Source of the DNA: Desulfobacter sp.
Lineage (GTDB): Bacteria > Desulfobacterota > Desulfobacteria > Desulfobacterales > Desulfobacteraceae
Reading direction: 5' to 3'
Assembly (NCBI GenBank): GCA_028768545.1
Contig: CP054838.1
Coordinates: 310,001 to 374,000, forward strand
DNA: 64,000 nucleotides
In this document: piece after piece, positions 11,709 to 31,833 of the stretch
How positions within the stretch are numbered: the first letter of the stretch is position 1
How the letters are laid out: every line of letters starts with the position of its first letter
Position numbers and translations under genes: made by a program
The notes under the pieces: generated by a model
Told to the model about the DNA's origin: nothing
Seen by the model: only the letters and a program-made list of their open reading frames with translations
The model's database searches: none

Positions 11709-12545
11709 GGTTCTGTTGCAAAAAATTATTAATGTCTGATACAAGTCCGTTTTGGCACTAATTTGTTTGCAGAGAGATAGTATGAAAAATGAAAACCCTT
11801 TCAAGTGGCGTCATTATGAAAAAGAAATCATCCTGTTGAATGTTCGCTGGTATCTGAGATATCAACTGAGTTACAGGAATCTGGAAGAGATGATGCAAGA
11901 ACGGGGCTTGTCTGTGGATCACAGTACCATTTACCGATGGGTTCAGCGCTATGCTCCTGAAATGGAAAAGCGAAGCAGGAAGTATCTGCGGCAATCAAAT
12001 GATTCTTACCGTATTGATGAAACATATATCAAGGTGCGGGGGAAAATGAAGTATCTTTACCGAGCGGTCGATTCCCGTGGAAATACCATCGATTTTCTTC
12101 TTCGCAGCAGACGTAATATGGAATCTGCCAAACGATTTTTTAAAAAGATGCTGCGAGCTTCCAATAGCTCCAGACCTCGGGTTCTGAGTGTTGACGGAAA
12201 TCCTGCATATCCTCCGGCAGTAAAGGCTTTGAAAGAAAAAAAGCTTCTGAATAAGGACTGTATCCTAAGACAGAATAAATATCTGAACAATATTATTGAG
12301 CAAGACCACCGGTTTATCAAAAAGCTTGTCAGAGCTGGTATGGGGTTCAAGACATTTCATTCTGCCTGGCGGACGCTAAAAGGCTATGAAATTATGAACA
12401 TGATCAGAAAAGGACAAGTTAAAAATATCAGGAAGGGAGAAATTTTAAAGCAGAAAGAATTCGTCGAAAATCTGTTTTCTTATGCTGCGTAAATTTTACG
12501 CCTGAACGATCTCTTTGTCCTGGAAATATTTTTTGCAACAGAACC
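11709..12545 (+). mobile_element. IS6-family insertion sequence, copy A
   Basis: 837-bp element bounded by perfect inverted repeats GGTTCTGTTGCAAAAAAT and ATTTTTTGCAACAGAACC. It has the same sequence as copies B and C apart from rare single-base changes. The 8-bp flanks differ (GTTTTTCG on the left, TATGGGCT on the right), so there is no target duplication. Both neighbours are gene fragments, consistent with IS6-mediated deletion or rearrangement. Confidence 0.95.
11782..12492 (+). CDS. IS6-family transposase, copy A
   Basis: 236 residues. An N-terminal HTH (about residues 25-55, LEEMMQERGLSVDHSTIYRW) is followed by the DDE catalytic core: Asp in YRIDETYIKV, Asp in VLSVDGNPAY and Glu in NNIIEQDHRFIK. 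This is the usual IS6/IS26 size. The start at 11782 follows GAGAG; the frame is open further upstream to 11752. IS6 enzymes transpose replicatively, giving cointegrates, deletions or inversions, which explains the rearranged flanks in this window. Confidence 0.95.
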   Translation: MKNENPFKWRHYEKEIILLNVRWYLRYQLSYRNLEEMMQERGLSVDHSTIYRWVQRYAPEMEKRSRKYLRQSNDSYRIDETYIKVRGKMKYLYRAVDSRGNTIDFLLRSRRNMESAKRFFKKMLRASNSSRPRVLSVDGNPAYPPAVKALKEKKLLNKDCILRQNKYLNNIIEQDHRFIKKLVRAGMGFKTFHSAWRTLKGYEIMNMIRKGQVKNIRKGEILKQKEFVENLFSYAA

Positions 12546-15057: not shown

Positions 15058-16923
15058 TTATTCATTATGTTTTTCATAGCCCATGGGCAGTTTTTTGAAA
15101 CGACCGCCATGGATAATGGGATCTCCTTTATATCCCAGACCCTTAAAATCAATATAATCGGTTTTATTGATCAACTCATCCACATCCCGTCCCTGGGATT
15201 TCATATAGGAAAAATCGGTTCCTTTATGGGCGACCTTTTTAAAATCAACGTTTCGGTTGTCCTGGTGGCAGCGGTTACAGGTTTTATCACCTGCAAGGCT
15301 GTCATGGCACTGGACACATGATAAGGCCATCTCCTTGGGCATCACCTCATGATCCGCATCAATTGCCTGGACAGCCTTCATTATTTTAAAAGGAACAATC
15401 TTGGAGCCAGGATCGTTGATGGATCCCACAGGCTCGGTAATATTAATAATATCAGCGTTGAGATCAACCTTATCCCCCATGAGCACCCGTTTCATATACC
15501 CTGAATCCCAGGCATAGGTGGGGACCACAGACTCGTCCCATTTAAATTCACCTTTTTTCTTGTTATAATCGGGCTTGCCGTATTTGTCTTTTTTGGGCTT
15601 GCGGTTTTTATCCCCTGCCTTGGACCAGTCCCACCAGGTCTTGGTGGGTTTGCATTTTGCATAAACCGGTGCATGGCAGACATTACAGTCAAGGGTTTTT
15701 GCATGCTCATTTAAATGGTGATCCATGACGCTGCCGCAATAATGGGGTTCCTTAGAATGACATTGCTGGCAGGTGACCTCGCCTTCGGCAACCGGGACGG
15801 ATGAGCTTCTGCCCGCAATCTTGTGATTTCTTGTTTCATGACATTCCGCACAGGTAAAATCATATCCCCCCATATGAACGTCATAGTTTCTGCTGGGCTC
15901 CAAGAGCTGGCGTGACAGATCCGCATGTTTAACCGCATCTCCGCCCCCACCATTAAAGTGGCAGGAACCGCAGCTGGCACGGCTTGAATGCCCCACATTC
16001 TGGGCAATAAATTTTAAATCAATATCCTTTGCCGGCATGCCGGCATCCGGCCCGGGTTTTTTATACTTGCCCGTGGTATCATGGCAAACCAGACAATCCA
16101 TTTTGGTCTTATCACTAAAATCGAAACTATCGTCTTTCCAACCATATCCTGCATGACAACTTGTGCAACGAGCCTCGTTGCTTATGGGACTAATTCAGTA
16201 GTTGTTCAGGGCGGTTGTGCCCTTGCCGTGCATGACGTCCTTTCTATGCCCCGTTGTATAGGGAGAGGGCCCTTTCCACAGCCAGTGGGCTGTGGTCAGC
16301 ATGTCTTGGGCCTGGGCATCATGACAGCGCTGACATTCGGCTGTCACCTGGAATGGATCCGGGTTATCCGGCAGCTCGACCAACTCCTTGTGATCGGGAA
16401 CATTTTGTAAATGGCATCCCTTGCAGCCCACAGGTCCCTTGGCTTTTTCCTGATGGCATTCGATACACTGCTGATGATAGGCCGCCTTAAGGCCGATCCG
16501 TTCAGGATGATCCGGATTAAAAGAGTCCTGATGACAGGCCGAGCACCGTGTTGTTTCCAATGCCGCTTCATCCTTTGGCCGAAAATGATGGCATTTGCTG
16601 CAATCATTGGTGAGAGCTGCATGGCGTTTATGGGAAAATCTGACAGGCTCGTAATGGTCTTCGCGCTCCTTGATAATTGGACTGTTCAGCAAAAAATAAG
16701 TATCTTGAACATTATCTAAGGAAATGCCGGCATCCAGCAGACACATCCGTCTATTTACCATGCAGTCGTCCTTGTATTCCTTGATAAAGGGAACGACCTG
16801 TTTAGCCCTTTGCTTTGCTCGTTCCTGATCCGGGGCCTTCCAGACCTCTGCCATACACAGGGCAGTCGTCAAAATCCCAAGGCCAGCCAAAAAAATAATT
16901 TTCTTTATTTTTCTCTTTATCAC
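15058..16923 (-). CDS. Multiheme cytochrome c, octaheme tetrathionate reductase-like, probable selenoprotein (Sec at codon 243)
   Basis: Read through one in-frame TGA (16197-16195), this is a 621-residue exported protein. Its N-terminal signal anchor is KIIFLAGLGILTTALCMAE. A cytochrome c3/c7-like part has four hemes (CSKCH, CSACH, CIECH, CKGCH). An octaheme-reductase-like part has CQRCH, then after the TGA CTSCH, CLVCH, CGSCH, CAECH, CQQCH, CNVCH, CVQCH and CNRCH, 13 CxxCH in all. The sequence after the TGA (NEARCTSCHAGYGWKD) continues the octaheme family without a start codon, RBS or gap. A SECIS-like hairpin follows. The start is GTG 16923 with AAGGAGG, overlapping the NrfD stop. Nonsense mutation is the alternative. 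It probably takes electrons from the FeS/NrfD module. Confidence 0.8.
16165..16181 (-). promoter_or_regulatory. SECIS-like hairpin after in-frame TGA
   Basis: On the coding strand, GCAACGA GGC TCGTTGC forms a perfect 7-bp stem with a 3-nt loop beginning with G. It starts 13 nt after the TGA, so the loop is 20 nt from the TGA. Bacterial SECIS elements recognised by SelB are described as stem-loops just 3' of UGA, with about 16-37 nt to the loop and a G in its first positions. The match is by eye only. Confidence 0.7.
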
Positions 16924-17040
16924 GAAGACACCTCCTTGGGGGCCTGTAGAACAGGCAGATAGGTCACAACAAATCTATAAATAAACATCAAGGTTGCAAT
17001 AAGCCCTAAAGTGACCAGAATTTCTCCCAGGGCCGGGAAA
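16920..17040 (-). pseudogene. C-terminal end of NrfD-like membrane subunit, separated by IS6 inversion
   Basis: The minus strand, read from the IS6 copy B boundary, encodes ALGEILVTLGLIATLMFIYR then FVVTYLPVLQAPKEVSS and a stop that overlaps the GTG start of the cytochrome gene. This completes the NrfD-like protein that is cut at 21120. Removing one 8-bp copy (CCGGGAAA) and one extra C at 20285-20288 gives a single 400-residue frame, so the two pieces were once contiguous. Confidence 0.85.
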
Positions 17041-17877
17041 GGTTCTGTTGCAAAAAATTATTAATGTCTGATACAAGTCCGTTTTGGCACTAATTTGTTT
17101 GCAGAGAGATAGTATGAAAAATGAAAACCCTTTCAAGTGGCGTCATTATGAAAAAGAAATCATCCTGTTGAATGTTCGCTGGTATCTGATATATCAACTG
17201 AGTTACAGGAATCTGGAAGAGATGATGCAAGAACGGGGCTTGTCTGTGGATCACAGTACCATTTACCGATGGGTTCAGCGCTATGCTCCTGAAATGGAAA
17301 AGCGAAGCAGGAAGTATCTGCGGCAATCAAATGATTCTTACCGTATTGATGAAACATATATCAAGGTGCGGGGGAAAATGAAGTATCTTTACCGAGCGGT
17401 CGATTCCCGTGGAAATACCATCGATTTTCTTCTTCGCAGCAGACGTAATATGGAATCTGCCAAACGATTTTTTAAAAAGATGCTGCGAGCTTCCAATAGC
17501 TCCAGACCTCGGGTTCTGAGTGTTGACGGAAATCCTGCATATCCTCCGGCAGTAAAGGCTTTGAAAGAAAAAAAGCTTCTGAATAAGGACTGTATCCTAA
17601 GACAGAATAAATATCTGAACAATATTATTGAGCAAGACCACCGGTTTATCAAAAAGCTTGTCAGAGCTGGTATGGGGTTCAAGACATTTCATTCTGCCTG
17701 GCGGACGCTAAAAGGCTATGAAATTATGAACATGATCAGAAAAGGACAAGTTAAAAATATCAGGAAGGGAGAAATTTTAAAGCAGAAAGAATTCGTCGAA
17801 AATCTGTTTTCTTATGCTGCGTAAATTTTACGCCTGAACGATCTCTTTGTCCTGGAAATATTTTTTGCAACAGAACC
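17041..17877 (+). mobile_element. IS6-family insertion sequence, copy B
   Basis: 837 bp with the same terminal repeats as copy A. The left flank is CCGGGAAA. The right flank GCTTGGTC lies inside a truncated sigma-54 regulator. The left flank is the reverse complement of the left flank of copy C (TTTCCCGG), the hallmark of an IS6 replicative inversion of the 17878-21120 segment. Confidence 0.95.
17114..17824 (+). CDS. IS6-family transposase, copy B
   Basis: 236 residues, same as copy A except Ile for Arg in the segment RWYL(I)YQLSYR. The DDE residues are intact, so it is probably active. It lies between inverted repeats at 17041 and 17877. Confidence 0.95.
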   Translation: MKNENPFKWRHYEKEIILLNVRWYLIYQLSYRNLEEMMQERGLSVDHSTIYRWVQRYAPEMEKRSRKYLRQSNDSYRIDETYIKVRGKMKYLYRAVDSRGNTIDFLLRSRRNMESAKRFFKKMLRASNSSRPRVLSVDGNPAYPPAVKALKEKKLLNKDCILRQNKYLNNIIEQDHRFIKKLVRAGMGFKTFHSAWRTLKGYEIMNMIRKGQVKNIRKGEILKQKEFVENLFSYAA

Positions 17878-18664
17878 GCTTGGTCTGAATGGACAAGGGA
17901 ATATCGCCGATTTCATCCAGGAAAAAATCCCCTTGGTTGGCAGCCTCAAATCTACCGATACGATTGCTGTAGGCACCGGTGAATGCACCTTTAACGTGGC
18001 CGAACAATTCGCTTTCAAGGACGGATTCATTTAATGCGGCACAGTTGAGCTGAATAAAGGGTTTGTTTTTTTTTCCACCGCATAAATGGATGGCATTTGC
18101 CACCAATTCCTTGCCTGTACCGCTTTCTCCAAGGATGATAACAGGGGCGTTGCTCTCGGATGCTTTTCGGATCATATCAAAAACCTTCAGCATTTCAGGT
18201 GATTTGCCCACAAGACCTAAAAAATCAGCGTCCCTGTCACATTGCCTGGTAAGAATATGGACCTTTTCATCCAATTGGGTAAGTTCGGAAATATCGGTTA
18301 GCGTTTCCACAACACCAAGGGCTGTCTGGTTGTCGTCCCATAATATAGCGGCATTTTTTAAGACCGGTACAAAATTTCCGTCCCTGCATTTGATCAGGCA
18401 ACAGCATTTTATCATGTCTTTTTGGCCTTTTTCAAATAATTTGCACCATACTGATTCTTTGGCGGTCTGCAGGGTCTGTTCGCATGCATCACATCCCAGC
18501 ATCTGGCAGGACATGCCAATGGCTTGTTCGGATGTATACCCGGTAAGCCTTTCAAAGGCTTTGTTGACCATTAAAATGGAACCCTCGGGACCGATAAGCA
18601 TGAGACCGTCATTTATGGTATTCACGATCTTCTTCCAGAAGATGTTCATCTCGTGGTCTTTCAC
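17878..18664 (-). pseudogene. Sigma-54-dependent activator with PAS domain, 3'-truncated by IS6
   Basis: The native part is 262 codons: an N-terminal PAS-like sensor (about 5-130) with a striking Cys cluster (CQMLGCDACEQ, WCKLFEK, IKCCCLIKC), then the AAA+ domain with Walker A LGESGTGKELV, the GAFTGA loop and FFLDEIGDIP. It stops at IS6 copy B before sensor 2 and the DNA-binding HTH, so it should not function. Start is GTG 18664 after AAGGAG. It is divergent from a sigma-54-type promoter of the redox operon at 18863, which it probably controlled. The Cys-rich PAS may sense redox or metal; this is inference. Confidence 0.85.
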
Positions 18665-18707: not shown

Positions 18708-18804
18708 TATTAAGCGGGCAAATCGTCAAGCCTTGGTTGTATATCCAAATAATTGATCCATAAAAACAGATGGTTATAAAGGGAGCGATTATCAGCGTTG
18801 TACA

Positions 18805-18820
18805 GGGCACACCTGTTGCA
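18805..18820 (+). promoter_or_regulatory. Sigma-54 (-24/-12) promoter of the redox operon
   Basis: GGGCACACCTGTTGCA contains the invariant GG-N10-GC (GG at 18806-18807, GC at 18818-18819) and close -24 (GGCAC) and -12 (TTGCA) elements. It lies 43 nt upstream of the TusA-like ATG and next to a sigma-54 activator gene, which raises confidence beyond the motif alone. Confidence 0.7.
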
Positions 18821-18862
18821 AATAACCTTTATAATTTTTACATTTTAACACTTGGGGTTTTA

Positions 18863-19126
18863 ATGACAGCAAAACATATAGTGGATCTCAGGGGGGTGAT
18901 TTTGCCCCTTAACCTGCTCAAATGTAAGAATTGTCTTAAATCCATGGAAAAAGGAGATGTTCTTGAGGTGTTTATTGAAGATGTTGATGTGGTGCAGGAT
19001 TTGAGAACGATTGTAAAACGCTCCAATGATGAAATCGTTTATACAAAAAACAGGGATGATTACATCTGTCTTGGCATAAAAAAGGGGCCGAGAAATCGTT
19101 TTAATATATTTTTACATGGGAGGTAG
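18863..19126 (+). CDS. TusA/SirA-like protein lacking the catalytic Cys
   Basis: An 87-residue protein from ATG 18863; the frame is open upstream but without support. It follows the TusA fold pattern: [40 protein letters not shown], then a closing strand. In true TusA sulfur carriers the segment after LRG is CPxP; here it is ILPL, so the persulfide-bearing Cys is absent, although Cys occurs further on (KCKNC). First gene of the operon with the FeS and NrfD subunits. A role in sulfur handling or as an accessory factor is inference. Confidence 0.65.
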
Positions 19127-19127
19127 A

Positions 19128-20030
19128 ATGCAACTCAGTAGGCGAAATTTTTTTAAATTCATGGGAGCCGCCAGCGCCTCAGTTACGGCCTTGCCATCAT
19201 CTGCCGATGCCTGGGAATCAAAGGCGCCGCCTGATCCTTACGGATGCCTGGTGGACCTGACCCGGTGCGTTGGCTGCCGCAAATGTGAGGAAGCCTGTGC
19301 CCAGGTCAATGGCCTGCCCGCACCGGAACGGGTCAATTGTCAATGTACGATTTTTGACAAAAAAAGAAGGCCGGACCACAAGGCATATACTGTGGTCAAC
19401 CGGTATTTTACAGGTCAACTGGATCGTTTTGACAAACCGCTTCCAACCTATGCCAAGGTTCAGTGCATGCATTGCCAGGACCCGGCCTGCATTGTCGGGG
19501 CATTGACCAAGGATGACACGGGCAGTGTCAGGTATGATGTGGATAAATGTATTGGCTGTCGATATTGCATGGTGGCCTGTCCCTTTGAAATACCCGCCTA
19601 TGAATATGCCGATCCCATCACACCCAGGGTGATGAAATGTAACTTTTGTTACGACAGGATTTCCAAGGATGGCGGGATTCCCGGCTGTGCCACCATTTGT
19701 CCCACCGAGGCCATAACTTTTGGCAAGCGAGCCTCTCTTTTAAGGGTAACCAAAAAAAGGCTCAGGGAAAATCCAGGGGTATACATTGATCATGTGTATG
19801 GTGAACGAGAGGTGGGCGGAACATCCTGGCTTTATATTTCTTCTGTGCCCTTTGAACGAGTAAATTTGCCCGCATTACCGGATAAACCGTCACCCAAACT
19901 ATCCGAAACCATACAGCATTCGCTGTTCAGCTATCTATGGTCGCCCATCGCACTTTTCAGCGTTCTGGGGGTGTTCATGTATAAATCAAACAAAGCTGAG
20001 GAAGAGCCAAAAAATAAAGGAGGTGCCTGA
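19128..20030 (+). CDS. Tat-exported four-cluster ferredoxin subunit (HybA/DsrO-like)
   Basis: 300 residues. The Tat signal is [15 protein letters not shown]. Ferredoxin motifs are [32 protein letters not shown] and CNFCYDRI with a following CATICP, giving four [4Fe-4S] sites. A C-terminal membrane helix (about 270-290) follows. Such subunits pass electrons between a NrfD quinone module and a periplasmic redox protein. I chose ATG 19128, 5 nt after GGGAGGT, over 19116. Its stop overlaps the NrfD start (TGATG). It acts with the TusA-like, NrfD and multiheme cytochrome genes. Confidence 0.9.
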
Positions 20031-21120
20031 TGGAGCATAAATCAAGTCCGTTACACCGGCCCTTCTGGAGCCCCGGTGTCCTTGTCATGCTGGTTTTTAT
20101 GATTGCAGGAGCCGTTGCCATCGTTGCACGGTTTACCGGCGGCATCGGCTATGTCACTAACCTGACCAATGCCAGGCCCTGGGGACTGTGGGTGGGAGTT
20201 GATGTGGCCACCGGTGTTGCCCTGGCAGCCGGCGGGTTCACCACGGCTGCTTTGGCCCATATTGCAGGCAAACATTATTATGAACCCCATTACCCGGCCG
20301 GCACTTTTAACGGCTGTTTTGGGGTATACCTTTGTTGTTCTGGGACTTTTGGTGGATATCGGGCGTTCCTGGGCCATCTGGAAACCCATATTCAACTGGA
20401 ATACCAATTCAGTGCTTTTTGAAGTGGCCATGTGTGTGATGGTCTATCTCCATGTGCTCTATTTTGAATTTTTTCCCATTGTTGCAGAACAGTTCAAGGG
20501 AAGGGTTAACCTTCCGGGCGTTCTTTCTTCGTTCAACGATCTTACGGAGATGATATTGAAAGTGGGGGACGCTGTCATGGGTAAAATCATGTGGGTGTTT
20601 ATCATTTTAGGGGTTGTCCTGTCCTGTATGCATCAATCAAGTCTGGGCTCTCTCATGCTGGTGGCGCCGACCAAGCTGCATCCGTTGTGGTATACACCGA
20701 TGTTGCCCCTTTTGTTTCTTACCTCGGCCTTTGCCGTGGGATATCCCATGGTGGTTTTTGAAACAACCCTTGTGACTGCTTCGTTTAAGCTGGATTCAGA
20801 GATGAGCATTCTGGCGCCTTTGACACGGATTACTATTTTCCTTTTGGACATTTATATGTTTCTCAAACTTGGGGATATGGTTTACAGGGGCACCTATGTC
20901 TATCTTCTGGACGGGACCCATCAAACCAATTCCTTTATTGTGGAGATACTTTTAGGCGTAATGGTGCCCTGGGTAATGCTGCTCGTTGACCGGGTCAGAA
21001 ATTCCAGAAGAGGTCTCTTTACTGCGGCATCTTTGATTGTCTTTGGTGTGGTTTTGAACCGGGTCAACGTATTCATTGTCGGATATAAACCGCCATTGAG
21101 TGACAATGGATATTTCCCGG
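20030..21120 (+). pseudogene. NrfD/HybB-like quinone-interacting membrane subunit, frameshifted and cut by IS6
   Basis: The first 85 or so residues (PHRPFWSPGV-like opening, helices, ARPWGLWVGVDVATGVALAA) are in the ATG 20030 frame. After the C run at 20285-20288 the frame must drop one base to continue as PITRPALLTAVLGYTFVVLG. Several NrfD-type helices follow, ending at YKPPLSDNGYFP where IS6 copy C begins. The C-terminus is at 16920-17040 on the other strand. Reconstructed length is 400 residues, normal for NrfD/HmcC-type subunits. As sequenced it cannot make a full protein. Confidence 0.85.
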
Positions 21121-21957
21121 GGTTCTGTTGCAAAAAATATTTCCAGGACAAAGAGATCGTTCAGGCGTAAAATTTACGCAGCATAAGAAAACAGATTTTC
21201 GACGAATTCTTTCTGCTTTAAAATTTCTCCCTTCCTGATATTTTTAACTTGTCCTTTTCTGATCATGTTCATAATTTCATAGCCTTTTAGCGTCCGCCAG
21301 GCAGAATGAAATGTCTTGAACCCCATACCAGCTCTGACAAGCTTTTTGATAAACCGGTGGTCTTGCTCAATAATATTGTTCAGATATTTATTCTGTCTTA
21401 GGATACAGTCCTTATTCAGAAGCTTTTTTTCTTTCAAAGCCTTTACAGCCGGAGGATATGCAGGATTTCCGTCAACACTCAGAACCCGAGGTCTGGAGCT
21501 ATTGGAAGCTCGCAGCATCTTTTTAAAAAATCGTTTGGCAGATTCCATATTACGTCTGCTGCGAAGAAGAAAATCGATGGTATTTCCACGGGAATCGACC
21601 GCTCGGTAAAGATACTTCATTTTCCCCCGCACCTTGATATATGTTTCATCAATACGGTAAGAATCATTTGATTGCCGCAGATACTTCCTGCTTCGCTTTT
21701 CCATTTCAGGAGCATAGCGCTGAACCCATCGGTAAATGGTACTGTGATCCACAGACAAGCCCCGTTCTTGCATCATCTCTTCCAGATTCCTGTAACTCAG
21801 TTGATATCTCAGATACCAGCGAACATTCAACAGGATGATTTCTTTTTCATAATGACGCCACTTGAAAGGGTTTTCATTTTTCATACTATCTCTCTGCAAA
21901 CAAATTAGTGCCAAAACGGACTTGTATCAGACATTAATAATTTTTTGCAACAGAACC
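21121..21957 (-). mobile_element. IS6-family insertion sequence, copy C
   Basis: 837 bp, inverted relative to copies A and B, with the same terminal repeats. The left flank TTTCCCGG is the reverse complement of the flank of copy B. The right flank is a 78-bp stub of the IS4-family element. Copies B and C form an inverted pair around 3.2 kb and could also recombine with each other. Confidence 0.95.
21174..21884 (-). CDS. IS6-family transposase, copy C
   Basis: 236 residues, same as copy A in the sequence compared, with complete HTH and DDE residues. It starts at ATG 21884 after GAGAG and is probably functional. Confidence 0.95.
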   Translation of the reverse strand: MKNENPFKWRHYEKEIILLNVRWYLRYQLSYRNLEEMMQERGLSVDHSTIYRWVQRYAPEMEKRSRKYLRQSNDSYRIDETYIKVRGKMKYLYRAVDSRGNTIDFLLRSRRNMESAKRFFKKMLRASNSSRPRVLSVDGNPAYPPAVKALKEKKLLNKDCILRQNKYLNNIIEQDHRFIKKLVRAGMGFKTFHSAWRTLKGYEIMNMIRKGQVKNIRKGEILKQKEFVENLFSYAA

Positions 21958-22035
21958 CTCATAGTTCAAACAGGGACAATATTGTCAAAGATCAAAAAAT
22001 TATTGAGCAAGCAAAAACCTAACCGGACATCACTG
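21958..22035 (+). mobile_element. 78-bp remnant of the IS4-family element
   Basis: Exact inverted counterpart of 51712-51789: the last codons of the transposase (reading VKDQKIIEQAKT and stop) and the terminal repeat CCTAACCGGACATCACTG ending at 22035. The rest was lost where IS6 copy C begins. The IS4 end is fused to the truncated helicase gene, so the IS4 insertion preceded the IS6 rearrangement. Confidence 0.92.
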
Positions 22036-22042
22036 AGTCACC

Positions 22043-23701
22043 ATGGCAAAGCTGATGAAAAAACATGGAATATCAGCCATGGCCGTCAGCGGCAAAGACA
22101 ACCAATCCGAATCATATATCCAGGAGTACCAGAAAGGAAGAACTCAATTTCTGGCCACCTGCTCCCTGTTGAATGAAGGGTGGGATTCCCCCCAGACATC
22201 TATTATTGTCATGGCCCGCCCGACCATGTCCAAAGTCCTGTATACCCAGCAATTGGGCCGGGGGACAAGGATCCACCCCGAAAAGGAAGCTCTTTATGTC
22301 ATTGATGTGGTGGATAATTACGGGGGGTTGGGAGGATTCACCAATAGGCCATGGTCAATACATGCGCTATTGGGCATTTCAGACTATATGCCCTGGGGCA
22401 GCATGCTCAATGGGAAGCAAAATTCATATTCAAAAGAAGAAATTATTTTAGCCGGGCTGTACGAGCAGGAACGGACAATCGAGCATATCAACATTTTTAC
22501 CTTTGAAAATAAATATCCCGATCATATTGATGATGAACAAATGGCCCGGGAGTTATTCGTCTCCACGGGAACCGTCAAAGCCTGGGTTAAAAAAGGTAAA
22601 ATAAAACCCAAAGTCACCATACCCGTGGGCCGCCAGAAAATAAATTATTTTGCTTTGGATCAAATAGAGCAGATCATCAAAGATCTCCAATTAAAACGGC
22701 ATGATGAAACCACTCAGCACAATGACTTTTTTGAATTTATTGACAAAGATGATTTTTCAATGTCCTATAAAATGGTGATGCTCCTTTCAATGCTCAAAGT
22801 GGTCGACCATAACGGAGAATGCCATTTAGACGACCTTCTCAGGGAGTATACTGATTTTTACAGATTCCGCCTTGGAAAAAAAATCAAAGTAGACCGAGCC
22901 AACTGCCCCTACATCCAGGAGGAAACTCTGGATGATATGGTAATAATAAAAAGAAGTCTGCTGCAAAATCCCTTTGAGAAATTCGAACGAAAGCGGTTCA
23001 TATACCATTGTAAAGATCTCAACCACATCTCTTTTTCCAATAATCTATGGACAAAAATCAATAACAAAAAAGATCTGGGCCGACTAAAAAACACATATTT
23101 CAAAAGCCTGATTCATTATTACAAAGATCTGGACGGACTGCCCAATGAACTGGACCTGCGGCAAAAATGGATGATTCCGGCAGAAGCTCAAGAAAAAGAT
23201 ATAAAGATGCCTGCCCGGGAAAATATCAGGATTCTTGAATTTAAAAAGATCAGAACCGCCAGGTTTAAAACAGCCCTGCCCCTTGTGGGAGACATCGCAG
23301 CAGGAGAGCCGTTCAGGGGATTTGATATCCATGATCTTAAGAATGCTGACGCTGATCTTCAATGGATTGAGCTTCCTGACGCCTTGTGCAATGACCGCCG
23401 CTTTCTGGTCCGTGTTGCAGGAGATTCAATGGAACCCACCATAATAAAGGGGGATTATCTTGTCTGCGAATACCACCGGCACCGCCAGGAAAATCATCCC
23501 ATAGTCATCATGGGTGATTTTTCAGCCTTAAACGCCGGAGAGGTTGCCGTCAAAAGAATCTCAGAATCTGAAAACCACTGGATTTTCAAGTCAGACAACC
23601 CGGAATACGAGGATATTCTTCTGGAAAAGGAATATGATGATCAATATCCTATTTTAGGGATAGTCGTCTATAATCTCACCAAAATGGTACGATGCTATTA
23701 G
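22043..23701 (+). pseudogene. 5'-truncated superfamily-2 helicase fused to HTH and LexA/S24-like autoprotease domain
   Basis: The 552 readable residues begin inside the second RecA-like lobe of an SF2 helicase (LNEGWDSPQTSIIVMARP, YTQQLGRGTR are motifs V-VI). The NTP-binding lobe was removed by the IS4 end at 22035. A MerR/excisionase-like HTH follows (about 170-215, MARELFVSTGTVKAWVKKGK), then an uncharacterised helical region, then an S24 domain with a LexA-type Ala-Gly site (VGDIAAGEPF, 420/421), Ser462 in GDSMEPT and Lys504 in EVAVKRI. The intact protein may have been a damage-responsive or defence helicase; this is inference. ATG 22043 may not be used. Confidence 0.75.
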
Positions 23702-31501: not shown

Positions 31502-31687
31502 CGTCCTGGGTTTGCCATGGGATTTTCCAATGTACAGTCCTGGGCCACACCTTGTTTCAAGACTGTTCTGTTTAAATTCAGCGAGGGCCATCGTTTATCT
31601 TAAATTTTTGTGCCCCCTAGGGGTATTGTTTGACAAGGCCCCGGCCCCATGGTAATTTTGCCAAACAATTGCAGCGTCAATAAAAGG

Positions 31688-31775
31688 CTGGGGGAGTTGA
31701 TAAAAATCGGCTGAGAGGAAACAGACCCTTGTTTCGACCCCTGGAACCTGATCCAGATCATTCTGGCGAAGGAAA
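31688..31775 (+). ncRNA. TPP riboswitch (THI element)
   Basis: The conserved core is present: GGGGGAG near 31690, CTGAGA at 31711-31716, GACCC, then ACCTGATCC at 31746 with the closing TTCTGGCGAAGGAAA. It lies about 60 nt upstream of a thiamine transport and salvage operon. A small GGAAAG/CTTTCC hairpin follows. Control could act on translation of the first gene, since no T run is seen. The rest of the 31502-31833 gap is the leader. Confidence 0.93.
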
Positions 31776-31833
31776 GCCCTTTCCCCTCCGGACCTTTGTC
31801 TGAGCGCATAACATCTTATTGAGGGGCAAGACC

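Follow-up and report, generated by a model that had tools for sequence, protein, structure and literature searches.

The window, a stretch of 64,000 nucleotides from the single contig of a Desulfobacter sp. genome (CP054838.1), carries on its minus strand a gene for a multiheme c-type cytochrome that is interrupted by one in-frame TGA. The 621-codon frame runs from a GTG at 16923 to a TAA at 15058, its sole break is the TGA at 16197-16195 (codon 243), and the GTG start overlaps the stop codon of an upstream nrfD 3' fragment (GTGA). A sequence-only reading of this DNA had described two open reading frames in the same frame, split by one TGA and with hemes on both sides, and the gene is organized in this way. 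Of its 13 CxxCH motifs, four belong to a class III (c3-like) domain at the N-terminus, eight correspond to those of octaheme tetrathionate reductase (OTR) and one is an extra motif at the C-terminus. A Pfam search placed the class III cytochrome c domain at residues 89-171 with other multiheme segments downstream, and an NCBIfam search assigned the product to TIGR04315, the tetrathionate reductase octaheme family, with 397.6 bits against a cut-off of 375 despite a deletion in the gene. The closest solved structure found by sequence search is the Shewanella octaheme cytochrome 1SP3 (E 6e-99). Kinship of the gene to the TIGR04315 family is not in doubt.

The encoded protein shares with OTR of Shewanella oneidensis (1SP3; TIGR04315 octaheme_Shew) the order of the eight CxxCH motifs, the Asn-Asn-Phe/Tyr-Cys/Sec segment ahead of heme II and the GGGGDAxKH segment with the heme II lysine. 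In contrast to 1SP3, it is predicted to carry selenocysteine (Sec) in place of Cys64, is extended by a tetraheme c3 domain at the N-terminus and a further heme at the C-terminus, and is encoded together with FeS and NrfD subunits. In the 1SP3 structure described by Mowat in 2004, Lys153 is reported to be a heme II ligand and Cys64 to lie near the same heme. Heme II is the catalytic heme of OTR (PMC4484225). The positions of all features are collected in Table 1.

Table 1. Features of the c3-OTR locus (window coordinates).
Feature	Position	Strand	Remarks
13-heme c3-OTR fusion gene	15058..16923	-	GTG start, TAA stop, 621 codons, TGA predicted to be read as Sec
Junction of 171-bp (57-codon) in-frame deletion	15347..15355	-	one copy left of 9-bp repeat GGATCATGA
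Lys332	15928..15930	-	aligned with Lys153 of 1sp3; invariant in family
CTSCH motif of OTR heme II (catalytic heme)	16153..16167	-	hairpin ends (3') with the first Cys codon of the motif
Putative SECIS hairpin	16165..16181	-	7-bp stem GCAACGA/TCGTTGC, apical loop GGC
TGA codon 243, predicted selenocysteine	16195..16197	-	aligned with Cys64 of 1sp3 chain A
3' fragment of nrfD (quinone-linked membrane subunit)	16920..17040	-	
IS6/IS240-type insertion sequence, copy 1	17041..17877	+	
PAS/sigma-54 activator, 5' part only	17878..18664	-	about 264 of 459 residues
TusA-like protein, first gene of ancestral operon	18770..19126	+	
4Fe-4S ferredoxin subunit with Tat-like signal	19116..20030	+	
5' part of nrfD	20030..21120	+	one-base (C) frameshift near 20285
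Insertion sequence copy 2	21121..21957	-	inverted relative to copy 1

The TGA occupies a column that holds cysteine or TGA in homologous genes. It aligns with residue 64 (Cys) of 1SP3, ten residues upstream of the heme II CTSCH by alignment count, as expected from the earlier proposal that it encodes Sec near the second heme where OTR homologs have Cys. Relatives of the gene are present in 65 of 86 genomes of the same taxonomic family, most of the close ones with one in-frame TGA and a few with none. Among all non-identical loci collected, the column is TGA in 75 and Cys in 28, as read with a regular expression that admitted C or U alone at this position. The column is also invariant in two independent alignments in which Sec was entered as C, A1 with 10 sequences and A2 with 26 sequences reaching out to Chloroflexota. 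Read directly, TGA genes encode LNNYU-ISPISNEARCTSCHAGYGW and Cys genes NNYC-INVISNEPRCTSCH. The codon immediately preceding the TGA (16198-16200 in the window) is TTC or TAC in 72 of the 75 Sec loci. TTT or TAT is frequent there in Cys relatives, possibly an upstream context effect on UGA decoding.

A hairpin with the features of a bacterial SECIS element follows the TGA. The perfect hairpin with a GGC loop noted by the sequence-only reading (GCAACGA-GGC-TCGTTGC, positions 16181-16165) begins 13 nt past the TGA, which sets the apical loop 20 nt from the UGA. The bacterial SECIS model as given in a 2026 review (PMC13188914) calls for a loop of 3-9 nt with G in its first two positions, a stem of 4-16 bp, a distance of 16-37 nt from the UGA and a minimum free energy at or below -7.5 kcal/mol. 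The hairpin satisfies each of these constraints and resembles the consensus presented there, with a small 3-nt apical loop starting with GG, a stem of 7 bp, the 20-nt spacing and an energy of -9.0 kcal/mol. Compared with shuffled sequences, this fold energy is not beyond chance (z -0.8) and was dropped as evidence for the hairpin. Stems of at least 6 bp that fit the model are found in 73 of 75 TGA contexts versus 3 of 28 Cys contexts, and stems of at least 7 bp in 71 of 75 versus none of 28. Close Cys relatives with a plain sense codon, which could have counted against decoding as Sec, exist but have lost the full hairpin, as the Sec hypothesis predicts. Two of the three Cys cases with at least 6 bp retain Ala at codon +8 together with much of the stem, and are probably remnants of a SECIS that was lost.

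Conservation of the RNA rather than its predicted stability indicates that the hairpin is more than a chance fold, because synonymous change is absent from it across many loci and its sequence pattern is confined to OTR genes. The hairpin codons +5 to +10 (AGC AAC GAG GCT CGT TGC) exhibit zero synonymous variation across 57 non-identical TGA loci, in which nearly every degenerate flanking codon varies, and the same six codons do vary in 21 Cys loci. Across 395 genomes of the phylum, the TGA-N13-hairpin pattern has four matches, all of them in OTR genes and located at the Sec codon, and a reversed-pattern control has none. This OTR-specific sequence, in the genomes searched, distinguishes the hairpin from bacterial SECIS elements in general; an Rfam search of the window matched no SECIS family and returned a TPP riboswitch (31680-31791, 68.4 bits) as its sole match. 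Since the stem is nearly invariant within this hairpin class, it offers hardly any covariation, though relative L154 retains the stem by means of a G-U pair. Codon +8 encodes Ala in 58 TGA genes, Ser in one and Cys in the third OTR subfamily, compared with Pro in most Cys genes. The RNA loop therefore appears to dictate the residue at this position, an RNA signal apparently fixing protein sequence.

The genome encodes the machinery required for Sec insertion. Its one contig of 4.96 Mb contains a tRNA-Sec with anticodon TCA as well as selA, SelB in full frame and selD, so that selA, selB, selC and selD are all present. The selD match (L040, G000:C1:1671238-1672158) itself carries one in-frame TGA and is probably a Sec-containing SelD. 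With these genes present, and with homologs carrying Cys where the UGA lies, the comparison supports well the decoding of the in-frame TGA of the OTR family as Sec.

Sec is predicted at the same column in three OTR architectures and has repeatedly been exchanged with Cys. These are the c3-fused form found in the window, a membrane-anchored octaheme form (L045-L049) and a soluble octaheme form (L042-L044, L127-L142). The anchored form possesses a C-terminal hydrophobic anchor and a 17-nt hairpin identical to that of the window, which may reflect common descent, transfer or convergence. The soluble form carries a different hairpin, (T/C)TGGTGC-NGNT-GCACCA(A/G), with its loop four nucleotides farther from the TGA. 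Its outer pair changes from U-A to C-G, a single compensatory pair, but a formal covariation test in this third subfamily found no significant excess over shuffles and covariation was rejected as support. In a phylogeny built from 82 OTR proteins, 59 with Sec and 23 with Cys, seven Sec/Cys state changes are required, at least six of which are forced by well-supported branches, and the Cys forms of Desulfobacter and Desulfospira are nested inside Sec forms. Tentatively, the three subfamilies may have gained Sec at this heme-adjacent position more than once with unrelated SECIS elements, making the catalytic c-type heme pocket a recurrent site for a selenol; we consider this a possibility on the doubtful side. 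If true, heme and selenium would act on each other directly when sulfur or nitrogen oxyanions are reduced. A second OTR paralog in the same genome (L055, G000:C1:2605909-2606994) has a C-terminal hydrophobic anchor and Cys at the Sec column.

The c3-OTR gene belongs to an operon that is intact in relatives and broken up in the window. Intact ferredoxin, nrfD and c3-OTR genes lie side by side in relatives L062, L066 and L095, with a divergent PAS/sigma-54 regulator (L062) or a TusA-like gene (L066) upstream. The window operon is partly inverted and does not retain an intact NrfD/FeS pair. An 837-bp IS6/IS240-type element cuts nrfD, which is also frameshifted, into halves that end at 21120 and start at 17040; both halves carry the 8-bp target duplication TTTCCCGG, and the halves now point in opposite directions next to two IS copies that are inverted relative to each other. 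Fragments of the missing 3' part of the regulator are located about 35 kb from its 5' part (G000:C1:292158-292774), are 85% and 69% identical and contain internal stops. A one-step inversion between two IS insertions was rejected, as regulator sequence does not continue on the far side of IS copy 2; this, combined with the distant 3' fragments, requires more than one rearrangement.

In addition, the window gene lacks 57 codons between the seventh and eighth OTR hemes, where the aligned relatives are intact, and its catalytic domain is consequently incomplete. Neither this deletion nor the broken operon had been noticed in the sequence-only reading. In intact relatives, the missing segment is flanked by 9-bp copies of GGATCATGA, and a deletion between two such copies is a typical slippage signature. 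The lost residues include invariant Pro, Trp, Gly and Tyr positions (alignment A2) and correspond to the best-predicted part (residues 520-576) of an AlphaFold2 model of an intact relative, a model too poor overall for fold comparison (mean pLDDT 56). Errors in the assembly could in principle account for both the deletion and the frameshift. The rearranged copy might also still yield an active selenoenzyme, expressed from a promoter provided by the IS end or another gene. It retains the frame, the Sec codon, the hairpin, Lys332 and every one of the 13 heme motifs, and outside the deletion the protein is 95% identical to its nearest relative, but the loss of invariant and well-predicted residues and the split, frameshifted NrfD partner make such an active copy unlikely. 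Although the reading frame and the putative SECIS survive, the deletion and the IS rearrangement probably leave the window operon without function. Because of the 57-codon deletion, the IS-split nrfD and the truncated regulator, we think that the window copy looks recently inactivated, the Sec family itself being real. The Cys-containing paralog L055 may cover the lost function.

The clear decay of the window copy could invite the explanation that the TGA is an undecoded nonsense mutation in a dying gene. However, the same TGA and the same hairpin occur in dozens of otherwise intact relatives from several families, and a mutation would not stay conserved with zero synonymous change around it. 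For the OTR family as a whole this explanation is, on the sequence comparison, already refuted, and for the window copy we regard it as very improbable. That the gene instead encodes an N-terminal cytochrome that stops at the TGA and, separately, a C-terminal cytochrome initiated at an ATG at 16101, 32 codons past the TGA, where the mechanical list of reading frames splits the gene, has next to no probability, given that the heme II CTSCH between TGA and ATG would be lost and that Cys relatives encode one continuous chain. The existence of this ATG does correct the earlier statement that the downstream part has no start, while homology is unbroken across the TGA.

Decoding of the UGA as Sec in a c3-OTR fusion that would serve as an NrfD-fed reductase, with an operon now decaying in this genome, is on comparative grounds the reading we hold with high confidence. 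SelB and tRNA-Sec would decode the in-frame UGA with the downstream hairpin acting as SECIS, placing Sec at the position of OTR Cys64 immediately before the CTSCH of catalytic heme II. The product would be a periplasmic protein in which a tetraheme c3-type domain is fused to an OTR-type domain, with one extra heme. The operon of intact relatives has the order tusA-like (where present), ferredoxin, nrfD and c3-OTR, with the divergent PAS/sigma-54 activator alongside. In intact relatives, the NrfD/FeS pair probably oxidizes menaquinol, and electrons could pass from NrfD/FeS to the c3 hemes, then along the chain of OTR hemes as far as heme II; there the selenol may help reduce a small oxyanion. 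OTR reduces tetrathionate, nitrite and hydroxylamine (PMC4484225). For the Sec form, tetrathionate or another S-S compound seems the most likely substrate, with nitrite or hydroxylamine also possible; the TusA-like gene beside the operon hints at sulfur compounds.

The sequence-only reading knew of no described Sec-containing member of this family, a view that has to be revised. The selenoprotein catalogue of the 2026 review includes a 'Tetrathionate reductase family octaheme c-type cytochrome' (WP_331457571.1), listed as GenBank-annotated without analysis (PMC13188914). This entry represents the same family as the window gene; as it stands in the catalogue, it describes neither the Sec position nor the SECIS, subfamily or evolution. 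The ExtKL selenoprotein (NF040886) listed in the same review is also a bacterial multiheme c-type cytochrome with one Sec but belongs to a different family model (PMC13188914). A search of one literature collection for other accounts of Sec in the OTR family beyond this review found none. The Sec position, the SECIS, the three OTR subfamilies with Sec at one column and two SECIS sequences, and the at least six Sec/Cys switches thus appear to be new.

Many marine sulfate reducers possess this multiheme reductase, in which the predicted Sec immediately precedes the motif of the catalytic heme. Intact Sec forms are found, for example, in Desulfocicer vacuolatum and Desulfosarcina widdelii. Neighboring species naturally harbor Cys and Sec versions that are 70-80% identical, and the contribution of selenium to the chemistry is therefore directly testable. 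Because standard gene calling splits Sec-OTR genes, annotation errors arise easily for reductases of this type. The window in turn appears to capture a selenoprotein operon while it is being lost through IS activity. The genome contains 40 full-length copies of the IS6/IS240-type element that are almost all identical, which suggests a recent expansion, and other operons may be in the process of being broken as well. A further copy is located in the window at 11709-12545. Beyond IS copy 2, the segment at 21958-23701 encodes parts of a helicase-like protein spread over different frames, possibly another IS-damaged gene.
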